From the NCBI GenBank assembly GCA_017618215.1, contig JAFZUQ010000008.1:124001-188000 (forward strand): a DNA stretch of 64,000 bases. The letters are read 5' to 3'. Below, one piece after another: positions 34,698 through 46,116 of this stretch (positions are counted from its first letter, which is position 1; each line of letters begins with the position of its first letter). Below the pieces are notes generated by a model that saw only the letters and a list, made by a program, of their open reading frames with translations, did not search any database and had not been told where the DNA came from. Origin of the DNA: Elusimicrobiaceae bacterium. GTDB taxonomy: Bacteria; Elusimicrobiota; Elusimicrobia; Elusimicrobiales; Elusimicrobiaceae. The position numbers and the translations under genes were made by a program.

Positions 34698-37600
34698 ATG
34701 AAAAAATTTTTATTTTACTTTTTAATTTTAGCCCTTTTGGTTCTGCCTGCTTTTGCGGCAAACCAAACCCAAACTACAAAACAAAATGATATTGAGCAAA
34801 CCATAACTTTAATAAACCAACACAAATATGATGCAGCACTTAAATTGATATATTCCGTAAAAGTTCCGTCTAATAAAGAAGAAAGAGCGCTTTACTATCT
34901 TGCCAAAATTAAAGCGCTTGAAAGCACCCCTTACTATGCAAATGATTTAGTTGAAAGCAAAACCGATCCTACCAAATTTACAGATAAACAAAAACAAGAT
35001 GCCATAAAGCAGTCTTATAAAGAACTTTGGAATTTACGCACGACACTCGTTAATATGCCTTATCAAGAAAATAAAAAATATTTGGGTTATGGTTATTTTC
35101 AAATTGAGCCGGAAAGTTTGTACGATGCTCTAGTAAATACCTTTATAAACAGGCAGATAGAAACGGAAACTAAAATTTTGGAAGAATCATATAAATTAGG
35201 CGGTAAAAACCGCGATGGTATACGTGAATATTGGCATATACAATATATAAATGCAGAAATTGAAAAACAGAAAACACGAACATCACTTGAATTATATAAA
35301 GAACAGCAAAAAGATTTAGCAGAACTTTTTGCCACAATTTCCGGTTACAATAAAGATTATAACGGTAAATATAAACAATACTTTTTTGAAGCGAAAACTT
35401 TGCGCGGTAAATATGAGGCTGCTTTACAAAGTGCTCAATCTTATCAACAAGCAGAACAATTTTATAAAGCCCATGAAGTTGCCGAATATTGCGCACCTTT
35501 TGAAATAAAAAATAATGCTTGTGTTTTATTAAAAAAGGAAATTGAAAATCCAAGCGCTTATATAACAAACAATGTTCCTCATACTTATAAACCAAATACA
35601 TCTTTGCCAATTAAATTTAAGGCAAATAACTTAAAACAAATAATTTTTAAACTTTATAAATTTTCTTTAAAGCAAACACAAAATGGGGTTGGAGATTTTA
35701 AAAACATTAAACCTTATAAAACTTATACTCAAAATTTAACTTATGATAAGCCTTATACACCTAAAGAATTTGATTTTGAATTACCGAGTTTAGAACGAGG
35801 TTTTTATTATTTAACTCTTAATTATGGAGAGAAAGGATTAGATTCTCGTCATTTACGCATTACCGATTTGGCACTTTTGGCTACAAGCTATTTAAATACA
35901 GATAATTTACAAACCTTAAATTATAAAGATACAAGTGTAAATTTTTATACGCTTTCCGCACATAACGGGCAACCTCTTGTGGCAAGCATTTCGGGTGAGA
36001 AATTGAGCATGGTTCAAACAAATCAATCCGGCCAGGTAAATATAAAAGGAACAGATACTTTACGCAATATCGTGGCTAAATATAAGGATAATTATGCTTT
36101 AATAAATTATCTGTATCCGCAACATTATAGCGTCTCAAATCCAATATCAATTTATATAAATACTGACAGATCAATCTATAAACCTAGCGAGGAAGTAAAA
36201 ATTGTTTTCAATGTAATGGAAAATAAAGATAATAAACATTTTACTTATCAAGGGCAGGATAAATTAGATATTATAATACGTAATGCCTCTTATAAAGAAA
36301 TTGCAAAAGATACTTTAACCCTTGATAGTTTTGGCCAAGCAGTTTATACCTTTAAAGTCCCGCAAGATACAATGCTTGGTAATTTCAACATTAACGCACA
36401 TATTAACAAAGGTAACGGTTATGGTAGTTTCCAAGTGGAAGAATTTAAGCAGCCGGAATTTACTTTAAATTTAAATCAGCCCGATACTGTTTACGGCTTT
36501 AACGAAGACATCACTATTGACGGTAAAGCCGCCTATTATTCCGGCGAGGTTTTGGCAAATGCCAAAGTTAATGTCGTAATAAATAAACAACCTTTTTACC
36601 CTTGCTGTTACAGATGGGATAATTTTGAGTTTGAAAACGAAGACCCCGTTTATATGGAAATGTTGACGGATAAAGACGGTAATTTTAAAATAACCTTTAC
36701 ACCGAAAGCTAAAAAAGAAAAGAAAGTTTTACCTGCTCATTATTTAATTAAAGCGGAAGTTACCGGCAGTAACGGGCATACAATTAAAGGCGAAACAAGT
36801 TTGTATGTCGCAAATCAAAAATACTTTTTTGGCATTGAAAAAGTAAAAGGATTTTTTTTAAATGATACTGAAAATACCTTGACTTTAAAAATGCAAAATG
36901 CCGCCGGTAAACCGCAAAAAGGCAAAGCAACGTTTAAAGTCTTTGAAGCAAAACTTAAAGACAGTAAAAAGATTTCTTATTATCAAGAAAATTATGACTT
37001 GTCTAAAGAACCTATTTTTAGTAAAGAAGTAGAGTTCAGCGGTAATGAAATTACCCAAAAACTCCCTGCTCTAAAAGAAGGTTTTTACGGAGCTAAACTA
37101 AGTGCCTACGGTGATGAAAGCGAAGCGTTTATCTTCCCTGTGTTTAACAGCAAAAACCCTAATTTGGCAGTGGAAGGCAGTGTAACTTTACTTGAAAATA
37201 AAAAATATATTGTGGGTGAAAATGCAAAAATTTTACTTGGTGCAAACAAGGCAAAAGGTCCGAAATTTGTGGAAATTTATAAAAATGGTTTCTTTGTAAA
37301 ACGTATGAAATTATCTAATCAACCCTTGCAAATTTTAACTTTACCAATTTTGCCTGAATATCAAGGCGGTATAAGTTTACGCTGGCTCGGTGTGTATGAC
37401 TATGTAAGTTTCGAAGGAACACTTAATATAGAAGTCCCGTATTTGGGCAAAGATGTTGATGTAAAACTTAATGCACCGGAAAATTTAGAACCCGGCAAAA
37501 AAGCCGAACTTAATTTGATGGCAACTGTAGATAAAAAACCTTTACAAAATGCCCGTGCCATGCTTACTGTTTATGATAAAGCGCTTGATTATTACAGACC

Positions 37601-40139
37601 TCATAATTTCAGTTTACCGTCATTTTATGGGCAAAATTTTAATAGTGGCAGTATTACAAGTTCTTTGCAATCAAACGGCGCTATTTATTTAGGAGAAACG
37701 GCAAATTTCAGTGCTAGAGGGGGCAGGGGTGCCATATCAGAAATGAAATCTATTAGTTTTGCTGCTTCTTTTGACGGTGCTGCTATGGAAGAGAGCATTT
37801 CAGCAGCACCAAGGCTTGCAAAATCTAAAAATGCTATAGTGCAAGATATGGATACGGTACAAAACACCGAAAATAATGGTGTCCGTACAGATTTTGCACC
37901 GACCGCATATTTTAACCCGGGGGCAGATTTGAAAAACGGTAAAACCGCTTTCAATTTCAAAATGCCCGATAGTTTAACGGAGTGGACTGCCGCCGCAATA
38001 GTTTTCAGTAAAACTTTGCAAATCGGCAAAACACAAGTTAATTTTAAAACGCGTAAAGAATTAACCTTGCGCCTTGAAACACCCACATTCTTGCGCCAGG
38101 ATGATAAAATCGTCATAAAAACTTTAGCAAAAAATAATACTAAAAAAACTTTGCAAGGCGAGGTTTCTTTAACCCTTAATGTAAACGGTGAAACGGCGGA
38201 AAATAGTTTCAAACCGCAACAAATTTCCTTAAAGGCAGGGGAAGAAAAAACTCTTACTTGGCCCTACACCACCCCTAAAGATCTTGGGGAAATTACTGTT
38301 ACCGCGGCCATCCGCTCCGGCCAAATTATTGACGGCGAAACAAGAACTTTACCGCTTTTAACAAGCCTTCAATATCTGCCAAACAGCAAAACAATTGCGT
38401 TAAAAGAGGGGGCAAATTCCTTGCAACTTGCGCCCGTTAAAGAGGGGGAAATTTTAAGTGCCGCGCATTTAACTTTGGATACTTCTTTGCTCGTGCCTGT
38501 AATATCTGCAATGCCCTTGCTTAGTGAGCAAACTTTTAAAACAATTACCGGCACTATTGACCGCTATTTGCCGCTTGCAATAATTAATGAACTTTACACG
38601 AAATACCCTGATTTCAAAAAAGCAGCCAAGCAAATTGAGCGCAAAACCAGAACAGAAGAATGGAATAAGCAAACTTCTGAAATTTTATTGAAAGATATGG
38701 AACTCTCACCTTGGTATAACCTTTCAAAAGGTGGGTGTGAAGCTGATAATTTAATAAATATTTTTGATGCCGCAACCGTTGCCAAAAAACAAAAGAATTA
38801 TGAAGAAGACCTTAAAAAATATCAAAATTCAGATGGCGGTTTTACTTGGATAAAAGGCGGCAAGAGCAGTTTATATATTACACTTTATGTCGTAGACCGC
38901 TTAGCGCAGGCTTCATACTTTGGTGTTAAACCGCCGATGACAGTTACACAAAATGCTTTAAAATATCTGCATCAAAAATATAAAGAGTTTGATTTTTCAA
39001 AACCCTATTACCCGTTTGAAGCGATATATTATGCTTATGTAATAAGTGCTTTTGATAAAACTTTACTTGTTCAAGATACACGCAAAAAAGTACAAACGTT
39101 AGCTGATTATATTGATAAACAAAAGGAAATTTTAGCACCTCTCGGACAAGTTTACATGGCAGTTATTTACCATCGTTTAGGCAATCCGCAAAAAGCCAAA
39201 AAGTATATTAATAAACTTTTTGAAACCGCCAAAGAAAATGATATTACCGGCACAAGTTTTGCTATGGAAGAACGCTCTTGGCAGTGGTTTAATGACGGCC
39301 TTAATTTGCATGCTGAGGCCTTACGCATGTTGCTTGAAATTGAGCCAAATAGCCCGCGTATTGATGGCCTTATAAAGTGGATTATGTTTAACAAGAAAGC
39401 GACGATGTGGGGCAGTACAACCAATGCCGCAAAGGCGGTGTATGCCTTGCTTGATGCAATAAAATCCTGGGATATTTTAGGGCAAAATAAACATTATGAT
39501 ATTGCTTGGAACGGGCAAAATTATAACCTTGATTTTGGCCCATTTGCAAAGGAAAGTAAGACGGTGTTTAGCGTGTATGCGCCACAGGCAAATAATGAAA
39601 GTTTGAAAGCGACAATAACACAAAATACAACTGTGGCACAGGGCAAAAAAGCCCAAAAAACTTTGCCGAGTTTTGCAACTTTAAGCAATCTTATTATCAG
39701 CAATTTGCCGCAGGAAGCAAGCCCGAAAGGTGTTTTAAATATTACAAAGAATTATTATTTAATAGAAGGTAACACCGTCAGGCCATTAAAAGAAAATGAG
39801 GAAATCAAAGTCGGTTCCAAAATACAAGTGCGTTTAACTGTTAAAGCGGAACATAACTTTGATTTTGTGATGATTCAAGATCGTAAACCTGCCGCTTTTG
39901 ACACGGAAAAATTGCTTTCCGGTTGGGTGTGGGACGGTTTATCACGTTATGAAGATTTGCAACTTGCACAAACTAATTTCTTTATGGATTATGTGCCTGT
40001 CGGTACTTATGAACTTAAATACATTTTACGTCCGACGGCGGAAGGTGTATTTAATGTCGGAGCAAGCGTGATGCAGAGCATGTTTGCGCCGGAAATTTCC
40101 GCACATAGCAACAGCTTTATAATTAAAGTTGTAAAGTAA
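34698..40139 (+). CDS. Alpha-2-macroglobulin-like protein lacking the thioester cysteine
   Basis: 1813 residues, the largest gene in the window. Signal peptide 1-20 (FYFLILALLVLPAFA), no lipobox. A helical, Lys/Tyr-rich N-terminal 280 residues are followed by macroglobulin domains (MG2 around 490, IYINTDRSIYKPSEEVKIVF), a flexible Gly/Ser/Ala-rich segment near 1000-1060 that could be the bait region, the A2M domain (SLTEWTAAAIVFS, near 1100) and the thioester-domain helical toroid (about 1260-1570). The canonical CxEQ is L1275-S-E-Q, so no covalent trapping by thioester. It is similar in that respect to E. coli YfaS. No pbpC partner adjacent. Probably periplasmic protease-trapping or envelope-protection protein. 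Confidence 0.9.
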   Translation: MKKFLFYFLILALLVLPAFAANQTQTTKQNDIEQTITLINQHKYDAALKLIYSVKVPSNKEERALYYLAKIKALESTPYYANDLVESKTDPTKFTDKQKQDAIKQSYKELWNLRTTLVNMPYQENKKYLGYGYFQIEPESLYDALVNTFINRQIETETKILEESYKLGGKNRDGIREYWHIQYINAEIEKQKTRTSLELYKEQQKDLAELFATISGYNKDYNGKYKQYFFEAKTLRGKYEAALQSAQSYQQAEQFYKAHEVAEYCAPFEIKNNACVLLKKEIENPSAYITNNVPHTYKPNTSLPIKFKANNLKQIIFKLYKFSLKQTQNGVGDFKNIKPYKTYTQNLTYDKPYTPKEFDFELPSLERGFYYLTLNYGEKGLDSRHLRITDLALLATSYLNTDNLQTLNYKDTSVNFYTLSAHNGQPLVASISGEKLSMVQTNQSGQVNIKGTDTLRNIVAKYKDNYALINYLYPQHYSVSNPISIYINTDRSIYKPSEEVKIVFNVMENKDNKHFTYQGQDKLDIIIRNASYKEIAKDTLTLDSFGQAVYTFKVPQDTMLGNFNINAHINKGNGYGSFQVEEFKQPEFTLNLNQPDTVYGFNEDITIDGKAAYYSGEVLANAKVNVVINKQPFYPCCYRWDNFEFENEDPVYMEMLTDKDGNFKITFTPKAKKEKKVLPAHYLIKAEVTGSNGHTIKGETSLYVANQKYFFGIEKVKGFFLNDTENTLTLKMQNAAGKPQKGKATFKVFEAKLKDSKKISYYQENYDLSKEPIFSKEVEFSGNEITQKLPALKEGFYGAKLSAYGDESEAFIFPVFNSKNPNLAVEGSVTLLENKKYIVGENAKILLGANKAKGPKFVEIYKNGFFVKRMKLSNQPLQILTLPILPEYQGGISLRWLGVYDYVSFEGTLNIEVPYLGKDVDVKLNAPENLEPGKKAELNLMATVDKKPLQNARAMLTVYDKALDYYRPHNFSLPSFYGQNFNSGSITSSLQSNGAIYLGETANFSARGGRGAISEMKSISFAASFDGAAMEESISAAPRLAKSKNAIVQDMDTVQNTENNGVRTDFAPTAYFNPGADLKNGKTAFNFKMPDSLTEWTAAAIVFSKTLQIGKTQVNFKTRKELTLRLETPTFLRQDDKIVIKTLAKNNTKKTLQGEVSLTLNVNGETAENSFKPQQISLKAGEEKTLTWPYTTPKDLGEITVTAAIRSGQIIDGETRTLPLLTSLQYLPNSKTIALKEGANSLQLAPVKEGEILSAAHLTLDTSLLVPVISAMPLLSEQTFKTITGTIDRYLPLAIINELYTKYPDFKKAAKQIERKTRTEEWNKQTSEILLKDMELSPWYNLSKGGCEADNLINIFDAATVAKKQKNYEEDLKKYQNSDGGFTWIKGGKSSLYITLYVVDRLAQASYFGVKPPMTVTQNALKYLHQKYKEFDFSKPYYPFEAIYYAYVISAFDKTLLVQDTRKKVQTLADYIDKQKEILAPLGQVYMAVIYHRLGNPQKAKKYINKLFETAKENDITGTSFAMEERSWQWFNDGLNLHAEALRMLLEIEPNSPRIDGLIKWIMFNKKATMWGSTTNAAKAVYALLDAIKSWDILGQNKHYDIAWNGQNYNLDFGPFAKESKTVFSVYAPQANNESLKATITQNTTVAQGKKAQKTLPSFATLSNLIISNLPQEASPKGVLNITKNYYLIEGNTVRPLKENEEIKVGSKIQVRLTVKAEHNFDFVMIQDRKPAAFDTEKLLSGWVWDGLSRYEDLQLAQTNFFMDYVPVGTYELKYILRPTAEGVFNVGASVMQSMFAPEISAHSNSFIIKVVK

Positions 40140-41933
40140 TTATTTTAACTTATTGATTTCTTCAAGCCACAGGTTTGCGTTAACGTCACTCGGTAAACGC
40201 AAATCTGTGCGCGGGCTTAAAGATACTTGCAGAATTTTTGGTCCTTCAGGGCAGCAGGAACGTTTGAATTGTTGCGCAAAAAACCTTCTGAAAAACACCT
40301 CAAGCCAATACTTAATTGTTTGCTTATTAAAATCATTTTTAAAAGTTTGGCAAGCAATTTCGTAAATTTCTTTCGGTCCTAAGTTCTCAACTAAAAAGTG
40401 ATATAAAAAGAAATCGTGCAAAATGTAGGGGCCGACTAAGTCTTCTGTCTTCTGTGTGATTTTACCTTTGCTTGCCGGTTTAAGTTCGGGGGAAATCGGC
40501 GTTGCTAAAATATCTTTTAAAACTTTGCTAACTTTTGCGGGTGCGGACTCTGCATATTCGGCAACAATTTCCTGAATTAAAGTTTTTGGAATACCGGCAT
40601 TTATACCGTACATTGAAAGATGGTCCCCGCCGTAAGTTGCCCAACCGAGGGCAAATTCTGACATATCCCCTGTACCCAAAACCAAAGCGCCGATTTTGTT
40701 TGAAATATCAAATAAAATTTGTGTGCGTTCGCGTGCTTGGGCATTTTCATAGGTGGTATCAATAATATTTTTGTTGTGTTTAATATCTTTAAAATGTTGT
40801 AAAACTGCTGGTTTAATATCAATTTCTTCAAAACTTACACCGAGTGCTTTACATAAAAGTTCAGCATTATTTTTTGTTTTTGATGTAGTGCCAAGGCCGG
40901 GCAAAGTATAAGCAAAAATATTTTTAAGCGGCAAATTTAATTTTTTGAAAGTGTGAACTGCCGCAAGCAAAGCCAAAGTGGAATCAAGCCCGCCGGAAAT
41001 ACCCAAAATAACTTTGTTGATTTTTGTTTGCTCCAAACGCCTTGCAAGTGCAAGCGCCTGCAAATCTAAAACTTCTAATAATTCTTGTTTATTTGATGGG
41101 CTGAAAGGATGTTTCGCATCTTTTTTACAAGTTTGTATTGATTGTATCTTTAATTTTTCGCCTACTTTATAATTAACAATTTGTTCTTGCATTGTTAAGC
41201 GCGGTGCCTCTGCCACGAGCATGCCTTTATCATAAATTAAGGTATTTGCGCTATAAACGACTTCTGCGGAAGATTCCCCAAAAGCAGGTGAGGCGTAAAC
41301 ATAAGTAACAGTTAATTTTGCTGAAATTGCCCTAAGCATATTTTCAAGTTTTGCTTGTTTGCCCAAATATTCATAATTGCTTACCGGGTTAAAGATAATT
41401 TCAACGCCTTTAGCAATTTTTATTAGCGGTTTATTTAGATCAAGCCCGATTTCCACAGCAAAATTTTTATCAAACACATTGAAAATTAAATTTGTACCGA
41501 GTGGTACTTTTTGCCCGAGTATTAAGATTTGATTTTCTTTAATTTGTATGCCTGGTGTAAAATAGCGCATTTCATCTGCGGTAAGATGTTTTTTAGGAAC
41601 AATACCTAAGATATTGCCTTTATGTAAAACGGTGATTGCATTGATAAGTTGTGTATTTATTTGCAAAGGTAAACCAATAATTAAAACGGTATTCAATGTT
41701 TTTGTTTCTTTTAAAATTGTATTTAAGGCTTTTAAAGTATTATCAATTAACAGCGGTTTTAAAAATAAATCCCCGCAAGTAACACCTGTTAAAGAAAGTT
41801 CCGGTGTTGTTATTATTTGCGCACCTTGTTTGGCGGCAAGTTTCGTTAATTTGATTATATTTTTTGCGTTTGTATTGGTATCTGCCACTTTTACGCGTGG
41901 GCAAATTGCAGAAATTTGTATATTGTTTTTCAT
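40140..41933 (-). CDS. nadE: NAD+ synthetase, two-domain type with degenerate amidase site
   Basis: 597 residues. The N-terminal nitrilase-like domain (1-270) keeps Glu45 (TTPELSLTG) and Lys114 (VPKKHL), but the catalytic Cys of the usual EICED motif is Gly163 (EIGLD; codon GGG at 41447-41445). The C-terminal synthetase domain is intact: PP-loop LGISGGLDSTLALL, LGTGDMSEFALGW, and SPRTDLRLPSDVNANLW at the end. It should make NAD from deamido-NAD using free ammonia rather than glutamine. Last gene of the dnaB-to-nadE cluster, 2 nt after radA. Confidence 0.92.
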   Translation of the reverse strand: MKNNIQISAICPRVKVADTNTNAKNIIKLTKLAAKQGAQIITTPELSLTGVTCGDLFLKPLLIDNTLKALNTILKETKTLNTVLIIGLPLQINTQLINAITVLHKGNILGIVPKKHLTADEMRYFTPGIQIKENQILILGQKVPLGTNLIFNVFDKNFAVEIGLDLNKPLIKIAKGVEIIFNPVSNYEYLGKQAKLENMLRAISAKLTVTYVYASPAFGESSAEVVYSANTLIYDKGMLVAEAPRLTMQEQIVNYKVGEKLKIQSIQTCKKDAKHPFSPSNKQELLEVLDLQALALARRLEQTKINKVILGISGGLDSTLALLAAVHTFKKLNLPLKNIFAYTLPGLGTTSKTKNNAELLCKALGVSFEEIDIKPAVLQHFKDIKHNKNIIDTTYENAQARERTQILFDISNKIGALVLGTGDMSEFALGWATYGGDHLSMYGINAGIPKTLIQEIVAEYAESAPAKVSKVLKDILATPISPELKPASKGKITQKTEDLVGPYILHDFFLYHFLVENLGPKEIYEIACQTFKNDFNKQTIKYWLEVFFRRFFAQQFKRSCCPEGPKILQVSLSPRTDLRLPSDVNANLWLEEINKLK

Positions 41934-41935
41934 AA

Positions 41936-43282
41936 TTATAACTTTACCGATAAACTATATAGATCTTCAAGTTGTTCGACTTTAACTTTGGGTGTTTCTT
42001 TTAAAATCGGTGTAAAAATTTCCTTCATGCCAAGGCGCGCGGCTTCTTTGATGCGGCGCTCGGTTAAAGGTACAGGTGCAACTTGCCCCAAAATTCCCAC
42101 TTCACCGATAAATGCGGAAGTGCCGGAAATCGGTTTGTCTTTAACTGAGCTTATCACAGCGGCACAAATTGCAAGGTCAAGTGACGGATCATTAATTTTT
42201 GTACCGCCTGTTAGAGAAATATAGACATCTTTATTATCTAAATTTAAACCGATATGTTTTTCAAGCGCGGCAAGCAGCATTTGGCAGCGGTTTAAATCAA
42301 GCCCTGTTGCTATTCGGCGTGGGTATGGGAAATGCGTTACCGAAGTTAAAACTTGAACTTCAGTTAAAATCGGGCGCGTACCTTCAAGCGCGATAGAAAA
42401 GGCCCTGCCTATAATTTTTTTACTGCGCGAAGTTTGCGCAAAATATGCGCTTGCATCTAAAACATCTTCAAGTCCGGTTGCTGTCATTTTAAATAATGCA
42501 ATTTCAGAAGTTGAACCGAAGCGGTTTTTGTGTGCGCGCAGTATGCGCAAAATATTATCGGAATCGCTGTCAAAATATAAGACGGTATCAACCATGTGCT
42601 CCAAAACTTTTGGGCCGGCAAGGGCGCCGTCTTTGGTAACATGGCCCAAAATAAAAGTTATTATTCCGCTTGGTTTTGTGGCACGTAAAATTTCGCCTGC
42701 ACTTTCACGCACTTGGCTTAAAGTGCCGGATGCTGAGTTAAATTCCGGATGATAAACCGTTTGTATTGAGTCTATTATCAAAACTTGCGGTGCAACTTTT
42801 TTTATGGCTTCCAAAATGCGCTGAATATTTGTTTCAGAGAGTAAAAAAATATTTTCCCCGTCGGCTTTCAAGCGTTTTGCGCGGGATGCAATTTGCTCCA
42901 AAGATTCTTCACCTGAAATGTATAAAACTTTTTTGTTTTTTGATAAAGCAGATGCAATTTGAAGCATCAAAGTGCTTTTACCGATACCGGGTGCACCGGC
43001 AAGCAAAGTTATTTGCCCGTCAACAAGCCCGCCGGAAGTTAAGCGGTCAAATTCCGATATACCTGTTGCGGTGCGTTTTTCTTCTTTTGCGCTGGCGTCT
43101 TTGAGGGGGGTAATTTCTGAAGAAAATTCTGTAAAAGATTTTTTAGTTTTTGCCGTTTTTGATTCTTCTTGTATAACTTCTTCGGCAAAGCTATTCCACT
43201 CCCCGCAATCAGGGCAACGCCCCAGCCATTTTGGAGAGTTAAAACCGCATTTTTGACAAGTATAAATAGTTTTAAATTTCAT
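41936..43282 (-). CDS. radA: DNA repair protein RadA
   Basis: 448-residue RecA-like ATPase that helps process recombination intermediates. N-terminal four-cysteine zinc finger (CQKCGFNSPKWLGRCPDC), Walker A GAPGIGKST, the RadA signature KNRFGS, and a C-terminal Lon-protease-like domain (DPSLDLAICAAVISS). Full length. It lies between mlaD (9 nt upstream) and nadE. Confidence 0.96.
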   Translation of the reverse strand: MKFKTIYTCQKCGFNSPKWLGRCPDCGEWNSFAEEVIQEESKTAKTKKSFTEFSSEITPLKDASAKEEKRTATGISEFDRLTSGGLVDGQITLLAGAPGIGKSTLMLQIASALSKNKKVLYISGEESLEQIASRAKRLKADGENIFLLSETNIQRILEAIKKVAPQVLIIDSIQTVYHPEFNSASGTLSQVRESAGEILRATKPSGIITFILGHVTKDGALAGPKVLEHMVDTVLYFDSDSDNILRILRAHKNRFGSTSEIALFKMTATGLEDVLDASAYFAQTSRSKKIIGRAFSIALEGTRPILTEVQVLTSVTHFPYPRRIATGLDLNRCQMLLAALEKHIGLNLDNKDVYISLTGGTKINDPSLDLAICAAVISSVKDKPISGTSAFIGEVGILGQVAPVPLTERRIKEAARLGMKEIFTPILKETPKVKVEQLEDLYSLSVKL

Positions 43283-43291
43283 AAATACCTA

Positions 43292-44569
43292 CTAATTTGC
43301 CATTCTTGCCAAGCCAAGCAAGGAGGCAAGTTCTTTATCTTCAAACGATAAGTTAGCACCGATTTGTAAGGCAGAGGCCTCCGCAATATCATTATACCTT
43401 ACATTGAAACCTACATTCTTATTAATCCATGCTTGTGCACCGAGTGCATAGAAAGGTTTGTCAAACATACGGCCGTTAATTACGCGTTTGCGACCAAAGT
43501 CAGTTGCCTCCCCATATAAGGCAAAGTTTTTAACAATAAAGTTATTTGCTTTGTAGAAAGGTTTAACTGCTGCACGTACACCGCCTGAACCGCGAATCAT
43601 ACCCACTGCCAAATCACCCCATTGATTGTATACGCCGAGGCGTACATCAATTTGGTTGAAATCCCTGAAATCTTTATCATTCTTTGGCATATTATCTTTA
43701 TTGCCCAAATTAGCAACACCCGCGCTATAATATGTATAGCCGTTACCGGGCACGAATTTAACAAACAAATCGGAAGAACCAAGCCTACCGTTTGGTTGAT
43801 AATAAGCATCATAAAGCCAGAAAATTCTGAATTTAGCCATTTGACCTACAAATTGTTTTGCATCATCCGAAACTTGTTTGATATTTGCCAAAGTTTGCTC
43901 TACATCCTGTCTCATTTTTTCATCAGAAACCAAAGCAGGGAACAAACCTTTACCTGTTTGTAAATCTTGCATAACTTCATTTGAAGCTTTTGTAAGCTCG
44001 CTGACTTCCTGCATAGATTTTGTTAAATAAGGCCTTAAGGAAAAGATTAAATCATTTAAGTTGCCGGAAAGATTACGCAAATTCTCAAGTGCAGCATTTA
44101 AATCTTCAGCAAATTTGCCATTGTCATTTATGCCGCCTGTAAGGTTTTGTATGGAGTTTAAAGCATCGGTAATCATATTTGTAATCGAAGGTAGACTCAT
44201 ACCTGTTACATGGGAACCCGGCTCTAAAATACCGCTTTGTGGGTTGCCCTGTTCAATTTGCAAATAATTTGTACCAATTAAACTTGTGGCTGCTATCGCA
44301 AATTTTGAATTTTTATAAATTATTACACCTTCATTTATTTTAAGGAGTGCTAAAATTTCACCGCCTTCAATTTTTAATTCTTTAACTTTACCGACTTCAA
44401 CACCGTTTAAGCGGACATTTGATTTTGCCGGTAAACCGGAAACATCAGTAAAGTGTACCGTAATATCATAACCTTTTGTTATGGAAAAACTACCCAAGGC
44501 AAAAATACAAAGCCCCAGTAGAACTAAACCTATAAAAGTAAATAAACCGACTTTTGTTTCTGTACTCAT
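43292..44569 (-). CDS. mlaD: MCE-domain protein MlaD with helical stalk and C-terminal beta-barrel-like domain
   Basis: 425 residues against about 180 for E. coli MlaD. Residues 7-29 are a transmembrane helix, 34-118 an MCE domain (YDITVHFTDVSGLPAKSNVRLNGV in segments, SLIGTNYLQIEQG), 120-245 a helical stretch (ITNMITDALNSIQNLTGG, LENLRNLSGNLNDLIFSLRP), and 246-415 alternating beta-strand-like segments rich in Tyr/Gly/Asn (FRIFWLYDAYYQ, YTYYSAGVANLGN, ALGAQAWINKNVGFNVRYND). The protein could span from the inner to the outer membrane by itself. No mlaA, mlaB or mlaC is adjacent. Fused MCE-helix-barrel MlaD proteins are known from Veillonella. Confidence 0.88.
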   Translation of the reverse strand: MSTETKVGLFTFIGLVLLGLCIFALGSFSITKGYDITVHFTDVSGLPAKSNVRLNGVEVGKVKELKIEGGEILALLKINEGVIIYKNSKFAIAATSLIGTNYLQIEQGNPQSGILEPGSHVTGMSLPSITNMITDALNSIQNLTGGINDNGKFAEDLNAALENLRNLSGNLNDLIFSLRPYLTKSMQEVSELTKASNEVMQDLQTGKGLFPALVSDEKMRQDVEQTLANIKQVSDDAKQFVGQMAKFRIFWLYDAYYQPNGRLGSSDLFVKFVPGNGYTYYSAGVANLGNKDNMPKNDKDFRDFNQIDVRLGVYNQWGDLAVGMIRGSGGVRAAVKPFYKANNFIVKNFALYGEATDFGRKRVINGRMFDKPFYALGAQAWINKNVGFNVRYNDIAEASALQIGANLSFEDKELASLLGLARMAN

Positions 44570-44579
44570 AAATACCTCT

Positions 44580-45338
44580 TTAATTTGAGATTTTCATTTG
44601 TATCGGCCCGTTTGCCGAACCTTCTATAAATTGTTTAACATAAGGGTTTTGTGTACGTTTAAATTCCTCTTTTGGTGCCGCAAGCTGCACTTTGCCCTCA
44701 TAAAGCATGGCAAGAGTGTCTGAAATTTCAAAGGCACTTTTCATGTCATGCGTAATAACTATTGATGTTACATCAAGTTTTTTCTTCAAATCTAAAATTA
44801 ATTGGCTGATGATTTCAGACATTATCGGGTCAAGCCCGCTGGTCGGTTCATCATATAGAATTACTTTTGGATTGGTTGCCAAAACACGTGCTAGGGAAAC
44901 ACGCTTTTTCATACCTCCAGAAAGTTCCGAAGGCCTTAAATGTTCAATATCTTTTAAGCCGACAAGCGCAAGTTTTTCTTTTGCTATTTTTGCATATTCG
45001 CTTTTTGGTGTATCAGTTAAATATTTTAAACCAAAAGTTACATTTTCACCCACGGTTAAGGAGTCAAATAAAGCACCCTCTTGGAATAAATACCCAAAGT
45101 TTTTGCGAAGTTTTGCAAGCTGAAATTCATTGTTTATATGTGTAATATCTTTACCATCAACGAGTATTTTGCCGCCATCCGGTTCAAGCAGGCGGATAAT
45201 GCATTTAATTAAGGTGCTTTTACCTGTACCGGAACCGCCGATAATAGTGGTAACTTCGCCGTTTTTAATTTCCAAATTGACGCCGTTTAAAATATGTTTC
45301 GGGCCAAAATGTTTTTGTAAGTTTTCTATCTTAATCAT
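44580..45338 (-). CDS. mlaF: Phospholipid ABC transporter ATP-binding protein MlaF
   Basis: 252-residue ABC ATPase that powers MlaE. Walker A GGSGTGKST, signature LSGGMKKRVSLARV, Walker B VILYDEPTSGLDP, switch His in VITHDM. The ATG at 45338 lies 1 nt after the mlaE stop; an upstream TTG at 45350 would overlap mlaE. The order mlaE-mlaF-mlaD is a complete inner-membrane core. Confidence 0.95.
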   Translation of the reverse strand: MIKIENLQKHFGPKHILNGVNLEIKNGEVTTIIGGSGTGKSTLIKCIIRLLEPDGGKILVDGKDITHINNEFQLAKLRKNFGYLFQEGALFDSLTVGENVTFGLKYLTDTPKSEYAKIAKEKLALVGLKDIEHLRPSELSGGMKKRVSLARVLATNPKVILYDEPTSGLDPIMSEIISQLILDLKKKLDVTSIVITHDMKSAFEISDTLAMLYEGKVQLAAPKEEFKRTQNPYVKQFIEGSANGPIQMKISN

Positions 45339-45339
45339 A

Positions 45340-46116
45340 CTATACCCCAAAAGCGTGTAAAATCGCTGTTAAGAAGTAGTCAATAACCAAAATCATTACC
45401 ATGCTGACGACCACAGCACCTGTTGTCGCTTTACCGACACCTTCCGCACCGCCCCTCGTATTAAGCCCTTTATAGCAGCAAATTACACCGATAGTAAAAG
45501 CAAAAACCGTTGCTTTTATAAGGCCGTGCATTAAATCATCTACACCTAAATAAGTTGTGATATCATTTGTATAAGTGCTTGACGGTACCCCTAAACCTTC
45601 AACACTTACTATAAAACCGCCGAAAATACCCATTATGTCTGAAAATATTGTTAGTATCGGTATAGATACGGTAAAAGCAATTAAACGCGGAATAACTAAA
45701 TATCTTATCGCATTTGTACCGAGTGTGCTTAAAGCATCAATTTGCTCTGTAACTTTCATAGTGCCGATTTCTGCTGTAACGGCAGCACCCGCGCGGCCTG
45801 CTATAACAAAAGCAGTTAACACCGGCCCAAGTTCGCGTACTAAGGAAAAACTAACAAGCAAACCTATGTAAAGAGGTTCGCTTAAAATATTTTGCATAGT
45901 GTTACCTGCCTGCAAAGCAAGTACCATGCCGACGAATAAACCCGTCATCAAAATAACAGGCACACTTTCAACACCGATTTTTACTATTTGTTGCAGAGTT
46001 TGATTAACTTCAAGAGGGCTTTTACGGAACCAAAAAAAAGCATCTTTAATCATTTCGGTAGCTTGGCCGAATTGAGTAAAAAAGAAAATTAAAAATTTCC
46101 CCGTCTTTTTAAACAT
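45340..46116 (-). CDS. mlaE: Phospholipid ABC transporter permease MlaE
   Basis: 258 residues, polytopic (about five to six helices). Family motifs: MTGLFVGMVLALQAG, ELGPVLTAFVIAGRAGAAVTAEIGTMKVTEQIDAL in overlapping segments, then PRLIAFTVSIPIL. The core channel for moving phospholipid between membranes. It starts right at the alr stop (TAA ATG, no gap). Confidence 0.95.
   Translation of the reverse strand: MFKKTGKFLIFFFTQFGQATEMIKDAFFWFRKSPLEVNQTLQQIVKIGVESVPVILMTGLFVGMVLALQAGNTMQNILSEPLYIGLLVSFSLVRELGPVLTAFVIAGRAGAAVTAEIGTMKVTEQIDALSTLGTNAIRYLVIPRLIAFTVSIPILTIFSDIMGIFGGFIVSVEGLGVPSSTYTNDITTYLGVDDLMHGLIKATVFAFTIGVICCYKGLNTRGGAEGVGKATTGAVVVSMVMILVIDYFLTAILHAFGV

Follow-up and report, generated by a model that had tools for sequence, protein, structure and literature searches.

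A two-domain NAD(+) synthetase (NadE), the enzyme of the final step in NAD formation, is encoded in a 64,000-nucleotide stretch of the genome of an Elusimicrobiaceae gut bacterium (the window) and carries a glycine at the position of the catalytic cysteine of its glutaminase domain, which raises the question of which nitrogen donor such an enzyme uses, whether the altered domain still has a role and whether the loss is confined to this locus.

The nadE gene and its glutaminase pocket

The nadE open reading frame (Table 1) starts with ATG, ends with TAA and reads, in part, FAVEIGLDLNKP. Its product belongs to the NAD(+) synthase family PRK02628 of NCBIfam (663.1 bits, cut-off 473) and is matched by Pfam NAD_synthase and CN_hydrolase, the latter with 49.6 bits (cut-off 23.2) over residues 15-246. 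The single-domain NH3-dependent class is characterized by the absence of a glutaminase domain; with CN_hydrolase present the window protein falls outside it, and two single-domain models stay under their cut-offs (PRK00768, 45.6 of 250; PRK13980, 93.9 of 255). The synthetase domain, which had been described as intact in an earlier note on this DNA, retains the SGGLDS and TGDMSE motifs together with its Pfam match, and both motifs are kept in 4/4 species of the window clade.

The gene adjoining nadE upstream, which we take to be radA/sms-like on the basis of its motif, is also found at 2/3 sister loci. Convergent to nadE lies an ORF of 1813 aa with a signal-like N-terminus (window 34698-40139), presumably alpha-2-macroglobulin-like, and three consecutive genes upstream of radA (43292-46116) resemble, as we assume, the MlaD, MlaF, MlaE lipid-transport set.

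Table 1. Features of the nadE locus in the window (tbNadE, NadE of Mycobacterium tuberculosis).
Feature	Coordinates	Strand	Basis
nadE, two-domain NAD(+) synthetase, 597 aa	40140..41933	-	ORF and translation; NCBIfam PRK02628
Synthetase domain, residues 275-597	40143..41111	-	Pfam NAD_synthase
TGDMSE motif, intact, residue 421	40656-40673	-	Alignment
SGGLDS motif, intact, residue 313	40980-40997	-	Alignment
Putative pseudo-glutaminase domain, nitrilase fold, residues 1-262	41148..41933	-	Pfam, model, missing nucleophile
Leu164 to Asn167, Glu177 and gate Trp/Phe (Phe180) of tbNadE substituted	41433..41444	-	Alignment
Gly163 (GGG), at catalytic-cysteine position (Cys176 of tbNadE)	41445..41447	-	Sequence and alignment
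Glu121, second glutamate kept (Glu132 of tbNadE)	41571..41573	-	Alignment
4-residue deletion in YRE loop, between Ala119 and Asp120	41574..41579	-	Alignment to consensus
Lys114, triad lysine kept (Lys121 of tbNadE); alanine in L002 and L003	41592..41594	-	Alignment
Glu45, triad glutamate kept (Glu52 of tbNadE)	41799..41801	-	Alignment
radA/sms-like gene (presumed), neighbour only	41936..43282	-	Upstream ORF, 2 bp from nadE

The sequence EIGLD occupies residues 161-165 of window NadE. The earlier note had read the GGG codon at 41447-41445 as the loss of the nucleophile, and the alignment with tbNadE, in which Gly163 falls on Cys176, agrees. A substitute nucleophilic cysteine was sought and rejected, as the 20 residues on either side of Gly163 contain no cysteine; among the other cysteine-less (Cys-less) sequences a nearby cysteine occurs at +1 in L035 and at +4 in L125, the rest being at least 3 residues away and outside the motif. 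The two remaining triad members, Glu45 and Lys114, had also been reported as intact and align to Glu52 and Lys121 of tbNadE, a statement that holds for the window species, the lysine being replaced by alanine in the sisters L002 and L003.

The pocket has suffered losses beyond those described before, including a deletion in the YRE loop (consensus PKTYLPNYNEFYEKRWF vs PKKHLTA----DEMRYF in window NadE) and the replacement of the residues equivalent to Tyr58, Glu177, Phe/Trp180 and Ser203 of tbNadE by Val51, Leu164, Asn167 and Asn186, respectively, according to the alignment. The serine replaced by Asn186 is here assumed to be Ser203 of tbNadE. In Cys-bearing sequences, glutamate at the Glu177 site and tryptophan at the gate site are each present in 150/150. 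Among the features of glutamine-dependent NadE, then, the triad Glu and Lys are present, and the Cys, the YRE loop and the gate residues are missing. For the functions ascribed to the YRE loop, Tyr58, Glu132, Phe180 and the triad we follow PMC6946656. Judged by the missing nucleophile and the dismantled wider pocket, the proposal that the amidase would be dead gains support.

Distribution of the cysteine loss

The NadE of the three nearest species, which belong to the same genus and are 72-82% identical to window NadE, all carry glycine with the identical GGG codon. Glycine is thus fixed in 4/4 species of the lineage, which settles a check proposed in the earlier note, and the codon shared by three further species indicates that Gly163 is neither a chance event nor a sequencing slip. 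In seven other congeners (L005-L008, L017-L019) the two-domain NadE keeps its motif, as EICED or ELCED. In four more (G004, G008, G012, G015) NAD_synthase is matched at full strength by a frame just 265-272 aa long; in these genomes a single-domain-sized NadE replaces the two-domain one, so that three NadE designs occur within one genus.

On the synthetase tree the window clade stands beside the clostridial sequence L045 (SH-aLRT 83), the deeper branches being unsupported (0-32). Its synthetase domain groups with clostridial sequences (L045, L047, L240) and not with other NadE of its genus. Descent from a same-genus Cys-bearing NadE was rejected on this placement, which may reflect gene transfer or long-branch attraction, the two being indistinguishable here.

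The survey covered 181 distinct sequences of the PRK02628 type, one from the window and the others from 180 further loci; 30 duplicates were left out, as were 41 loci (L020-L030, L059-L088) that belong nearly all to other genera of the same order and fall outside this type. In this non-random set, in which families were picked for holding a Cys-less member and loci were mostly best matches, the nucleophile site is Cys in 150 sequences and something else in 31 (26 Gly, 1 Ala, 1 Ser, 1 Phe and 2 gaps), the alignment near the site being uncertain in the gappy rows L223, L224, L240, L225, L229, L053 and L046. For the Elusimicrobiaceae coverage was near complete: a match was found in 62/90 genomes, 61 were read (a partial gene in G419 was left out) and 14/61 were without the cysteine. 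Cys-less NadE are spread over Elusimicrobiaceae, Clostridia and Bacteroidales.

Based on a tree of the synthetase domain (180/181 sequences, L058 being too short), the fewest changes that account for this distribution are at least 16. Counting losses only gives 18 lineages, and 16, 13 or 8 when weak branches are collapsed at SH-aLRT 80, 90 or 95, respectively. Read from these sequences, the loss of the cysteine, nearly always to glycine, appears to have been repeated in other gut bacteria, with about 13-18 separate lineages in all. Glycine is present in 16/18 inferred loss lineages, a bias with a chance of ~3e-12 on the crude assumption of seven equally likely single-base changes from TGY. The glycine codons are mixed (GGG 8, GGA 8, GGT 6, GGC 3 in the 25 loci other than the window), which indicates that many of these glycines are not fresh mutations. 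Median genome size is smaller in Cys-less members of two families, 1.7 Mb (n=8) vs 2.75 Mb (n=38) in the first (p 0.0003) and 1.85 Mb (n=4) vs 2.65 Mb (n=46) in the second (p 0.017), with kinship ignored in both comparisons. NadE frames with one in-frame stop were observed at L011 (G027:C3, TAG), L215 (G400:C22, TGA) and G441:C18 (TAA).

The residues that disappear with the cysteine were defined by comparing the glutaminase columns conserved in the 150 Cys-bearing sequences with the 26 Gly sequences. The steepest falls affect the YRE-loop columns (4-15%), Trp/Phe180 and Ser203 (15% each), Glu177 (19%) and Tyr58 (46%), suggesting that the positions that relax alongside the cysteine tend to be known glutamine-contact and gating residues. 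Structural positions of the domain are 96-100% kept in the Gly set; Glu45 and Lys114 are each retained in 24/26 Gly sequences (92%) and in 28/31 Cys-less sequences, and Glu121 in 22/26 (85%). The retention of Glu45 and Lys114 in Cys-less NadE exceeds what is expected from plain decay. For columns conserved at >=90%, mean conservation in the Gly set is 91% in the synthetase vs 72% in the glutaminase domain. Relaxation also reaches the synthetase side, affecting C-terminal loop residues and the tunnel lysine Lys644 (tbNadE numbering), the latter dropping from 148/150 Cys-bearing to 19/31 Cys-less sequences.

Selection, predicted fold and genomic context

In the window clade dN/dS is 0.20-0.31 for the glutaminase and 0.06-0.11 for the synthetase domain, and the glutaminase/synthetase ratio of amino-acid distances is 2.0-3.6; in 240 comparably distant Cys-bearing pairs this ratio has a median of 1.32 (range 0.57-2.89). 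Purifying selection on the glutaminase domain of this clade therefore persists, relaxed relative to that on the synthetase domain. A general excess of glutaminase divergence was considered and rejected, since the ratio measured against the nearest Cys-bearing relative is just slightly higher in the 31 Cys-less sequences (median 1.70) than in the comparison set of 128 (1.59; p 0.01). Outside the window clade, the relaxation is site-specific and not domain-wide.

The AlphaFold model of window NadE is a confident two-domain structure (pLDDT 87.8, pTM 0.88), with pLDDT mostly >85 in the glutaminase domain and structural matches of the nitrilase fold, so that the pseudo-glutaminase domain is predicted to fold still. 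The best PDB matches of the model are NadE entries, among them 3ilv (Z 37, 2.1 A over 534) and human NadE (Z 34, 2.5 A over 567); the match to tbNadE (Z ~40, 36% identity) has an rmsd of 20 A, indicating that the domains are differently placed.

A NAD_synthase search (E 1e-15) in all 31 Cys-less genomes and 31 Cys-bearing genomes found one NAD synthetase gene in 30/31 of the former, with three in G388, and a second gene in 5/31 of the latter. Being the sole NAD synthetase in 30/31 genomes, the Cys-less enzyme must work in most such cells, unless NAD is imported. G452, counted with one gene, has an extra partial synthetase match (a 235-aa frame, protein search) besides its Gly-type NadE. No second NAD synthetase was found in the draft window genome; a further PF02540 match (28.6 bits) was rejected as a redundant NadE, being a separate 352-aa ORF starting FMKVVVGISGG, which presumably encodes MnmA. 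The in-frame TAA reported at this ORF sits just ahead of its start.

With regard to nitrogen supply, a single class-I glutaminase gene was found in each of the genomes G000 (that of the window), G010 and G014; by its ORF start and GICLG motif it is read as CTP synthase with the cysteine intact, and glutamine would thus still be in use elsewhere in the window genome. G001 and G011 have a further GATase gene, GuaA-like and 519 aa long, that is absent from G000, G010 and G014. Neither the window genome nor any of 14 genomes of the genus yielded an ammonium transporter (Amt), so that ammonia would have to come from diffusion or internal deamination. A search for glutamine synthetase found none in G000, G010 and G014; the enzyme is missing also from 6/7 Cys-bearing congeners tested, and present in G003 and in each of the three single-domain genomes examined (G004, G008, G015). 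Glutamine synthetase and Amt were rejected as the cause of the switch, as neither separates Gly species from Cys species.

Nitrogen donor and comparison with known systems

The reading that best accounts for these observations is that window NadE is a two-domain NAD(+) synthetase with a pseudo-glutaminase N-terminus that would use ammonia, to which we assign a probability of about 0.85; by extension, the Cys-less NadE of gut bacteria probably run on free ammonia. The synthetase site would adenylate NaAD in the usual way, and free cytoplasmic ammonia, in place of ammonia derived from glutamine, would then attack the product. The dead domain would be retained as part of the two-domain oligomer and support the synthetase, and where ammonia is available the glutaminase could be lost with NAD synthesis preserved. 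Human two-domain NadE is reported to work with ammonia (Km 42 mM, kcat 20 per s) and with glutamine (8.3 mM, 3.7 per s; PMC6946656). The choice of glycine may have a structural origin: in nitrilases the nucleophile is located at a tight elbow and forced into an unfavourable conformation (PMC4812014), which would make glycine a natural replacement, relieving the strain of the turn once the thiol is unneeded.

The dominance of glycine, against an expectation of 1 in 7 under equal single-base changes, and the persistence of Glu45, Lys114 and Glu121 among pocket neighbours reduced to 4-46% could also point to a converted pocket, in which glycine and the shortened loop open the old active site to solvent as an ammonium intake port and ammonium is bound or deprotonated by the Glu-Lys-Glu cluster, from which ammonia enters the tunnel. 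According to PMC6946656, the constriction and gate separating the glutamine tunnel from the ammonia tunnel are made up of the YRE loop and Trp/Phe180, both lost here. On the other hand, the lysine is gone in 2/4 species of the window clade, the buried Glu-Lys pair may persist for stability alone and the relaxation of Lys644 resembles tunnel decay, so that we consider this conversion doubtful; the broader proposal, that the cysteine loss was a repeated adaptive switch and that Cys-less NadE are re-purposed ammonia-port enzymes and not decayed ones, appears unlikely as well.

A separate glutaminase subunit acting in trans, of the kind known from Thermus thermophilus with its two-subunit NadE, has a precedent (PMC3376133), but it is very improbable here, as no amidase gene adjoins nadE in the listed window region and, in the predicted model, the dead domain sits where the glutaminase of solved NadE sits. 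The source genome, whose named close relatives are Elusimicrobiaceae metagenome-assembled genomes, is a 1.34-Mb draft in 19 contigs, 92.8% complete, which would leave room for an assembly error, a pseudogene or a redundant copy; this is already contradicted by the intact reading frame, the low dN/dS, the same codon in four species and the search for a second NAD synthetase, which found none, and we give it hardly any weight.

Ammonia use by two-domain NadE would bear on how these enzymes are annotated. Family models label the Cys-less proteins as plain two-domain NAD(+) synthases. In PMC3376133 every two-domain NadE is regarded as glutamine-using, with interface elements implying glutamine use, a rule that would misassign the Cys-less enzymes, and the patchwork of single- and two-domain NadE is attributed to gene transfer and loss, with no further fusion or fission; the present data suggest that two-domain NadE revert to ammonia in place, many times. 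In the open-access literature, to which the search was largely confined (subscription journals being mostly outside its scope), no paper was found on NadE with an inactive glutaminase. Close Gly/Cys pairs, the closest being L009 and L144 with synthetase domains ~86% identical, make the physiological nitrogen donor of NadE directly testable, and the near-uniform glycine offers a clean case of what succeeds a strained catalytic residue after catalysis is dropped.

Among known systems, M. tuberculosis NadE (PDB 3dla, 3szg, 6ofc) belongs to the same two-domain family (phmmer E ~1e-98) and matches the predicted fold as given above; it differs in that Cys176, Tyr58, the YRE loop, Glu177, Phe180 and Ser203 are all altered in window NadE, which is ~80 aa shorter. 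The C176A mutant of tbNadE (3sdb, 3seq, 3sez, 3szg) likewise has its nucleophile removed and, according to the entry titles, a synthetase site that still binds substrates, but it is laboratory-made and the rest of its pocket is intact, whereas window NadE lost the nucleophile and most of the pocket by evolution. Single-domain NH3-dependent NadE share the predicted nitrogen donor, ammonia, and differ from window NadE, which still has its glutaminase domain. A functional parallel may be found in human CPS1, described in PMC4655335 as an ammonia-using synthetase with an inactive ancestral glutaminase-like domain in which Cys is replaced by Ser; an adaptation of CPS III towards ammonia has also been reported (PMC7657897). 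Window NadE may be likened to CPS1 by function and not by homology, with an inactive domain deduced from its sequence and a presumed use of ammonia: fold and pathway are unrelated, the replacement is Ser in CPS1 and Gly in window NadE, and the loss in NadE, unlike that in CPS1, recurs across many bacterial lineages.
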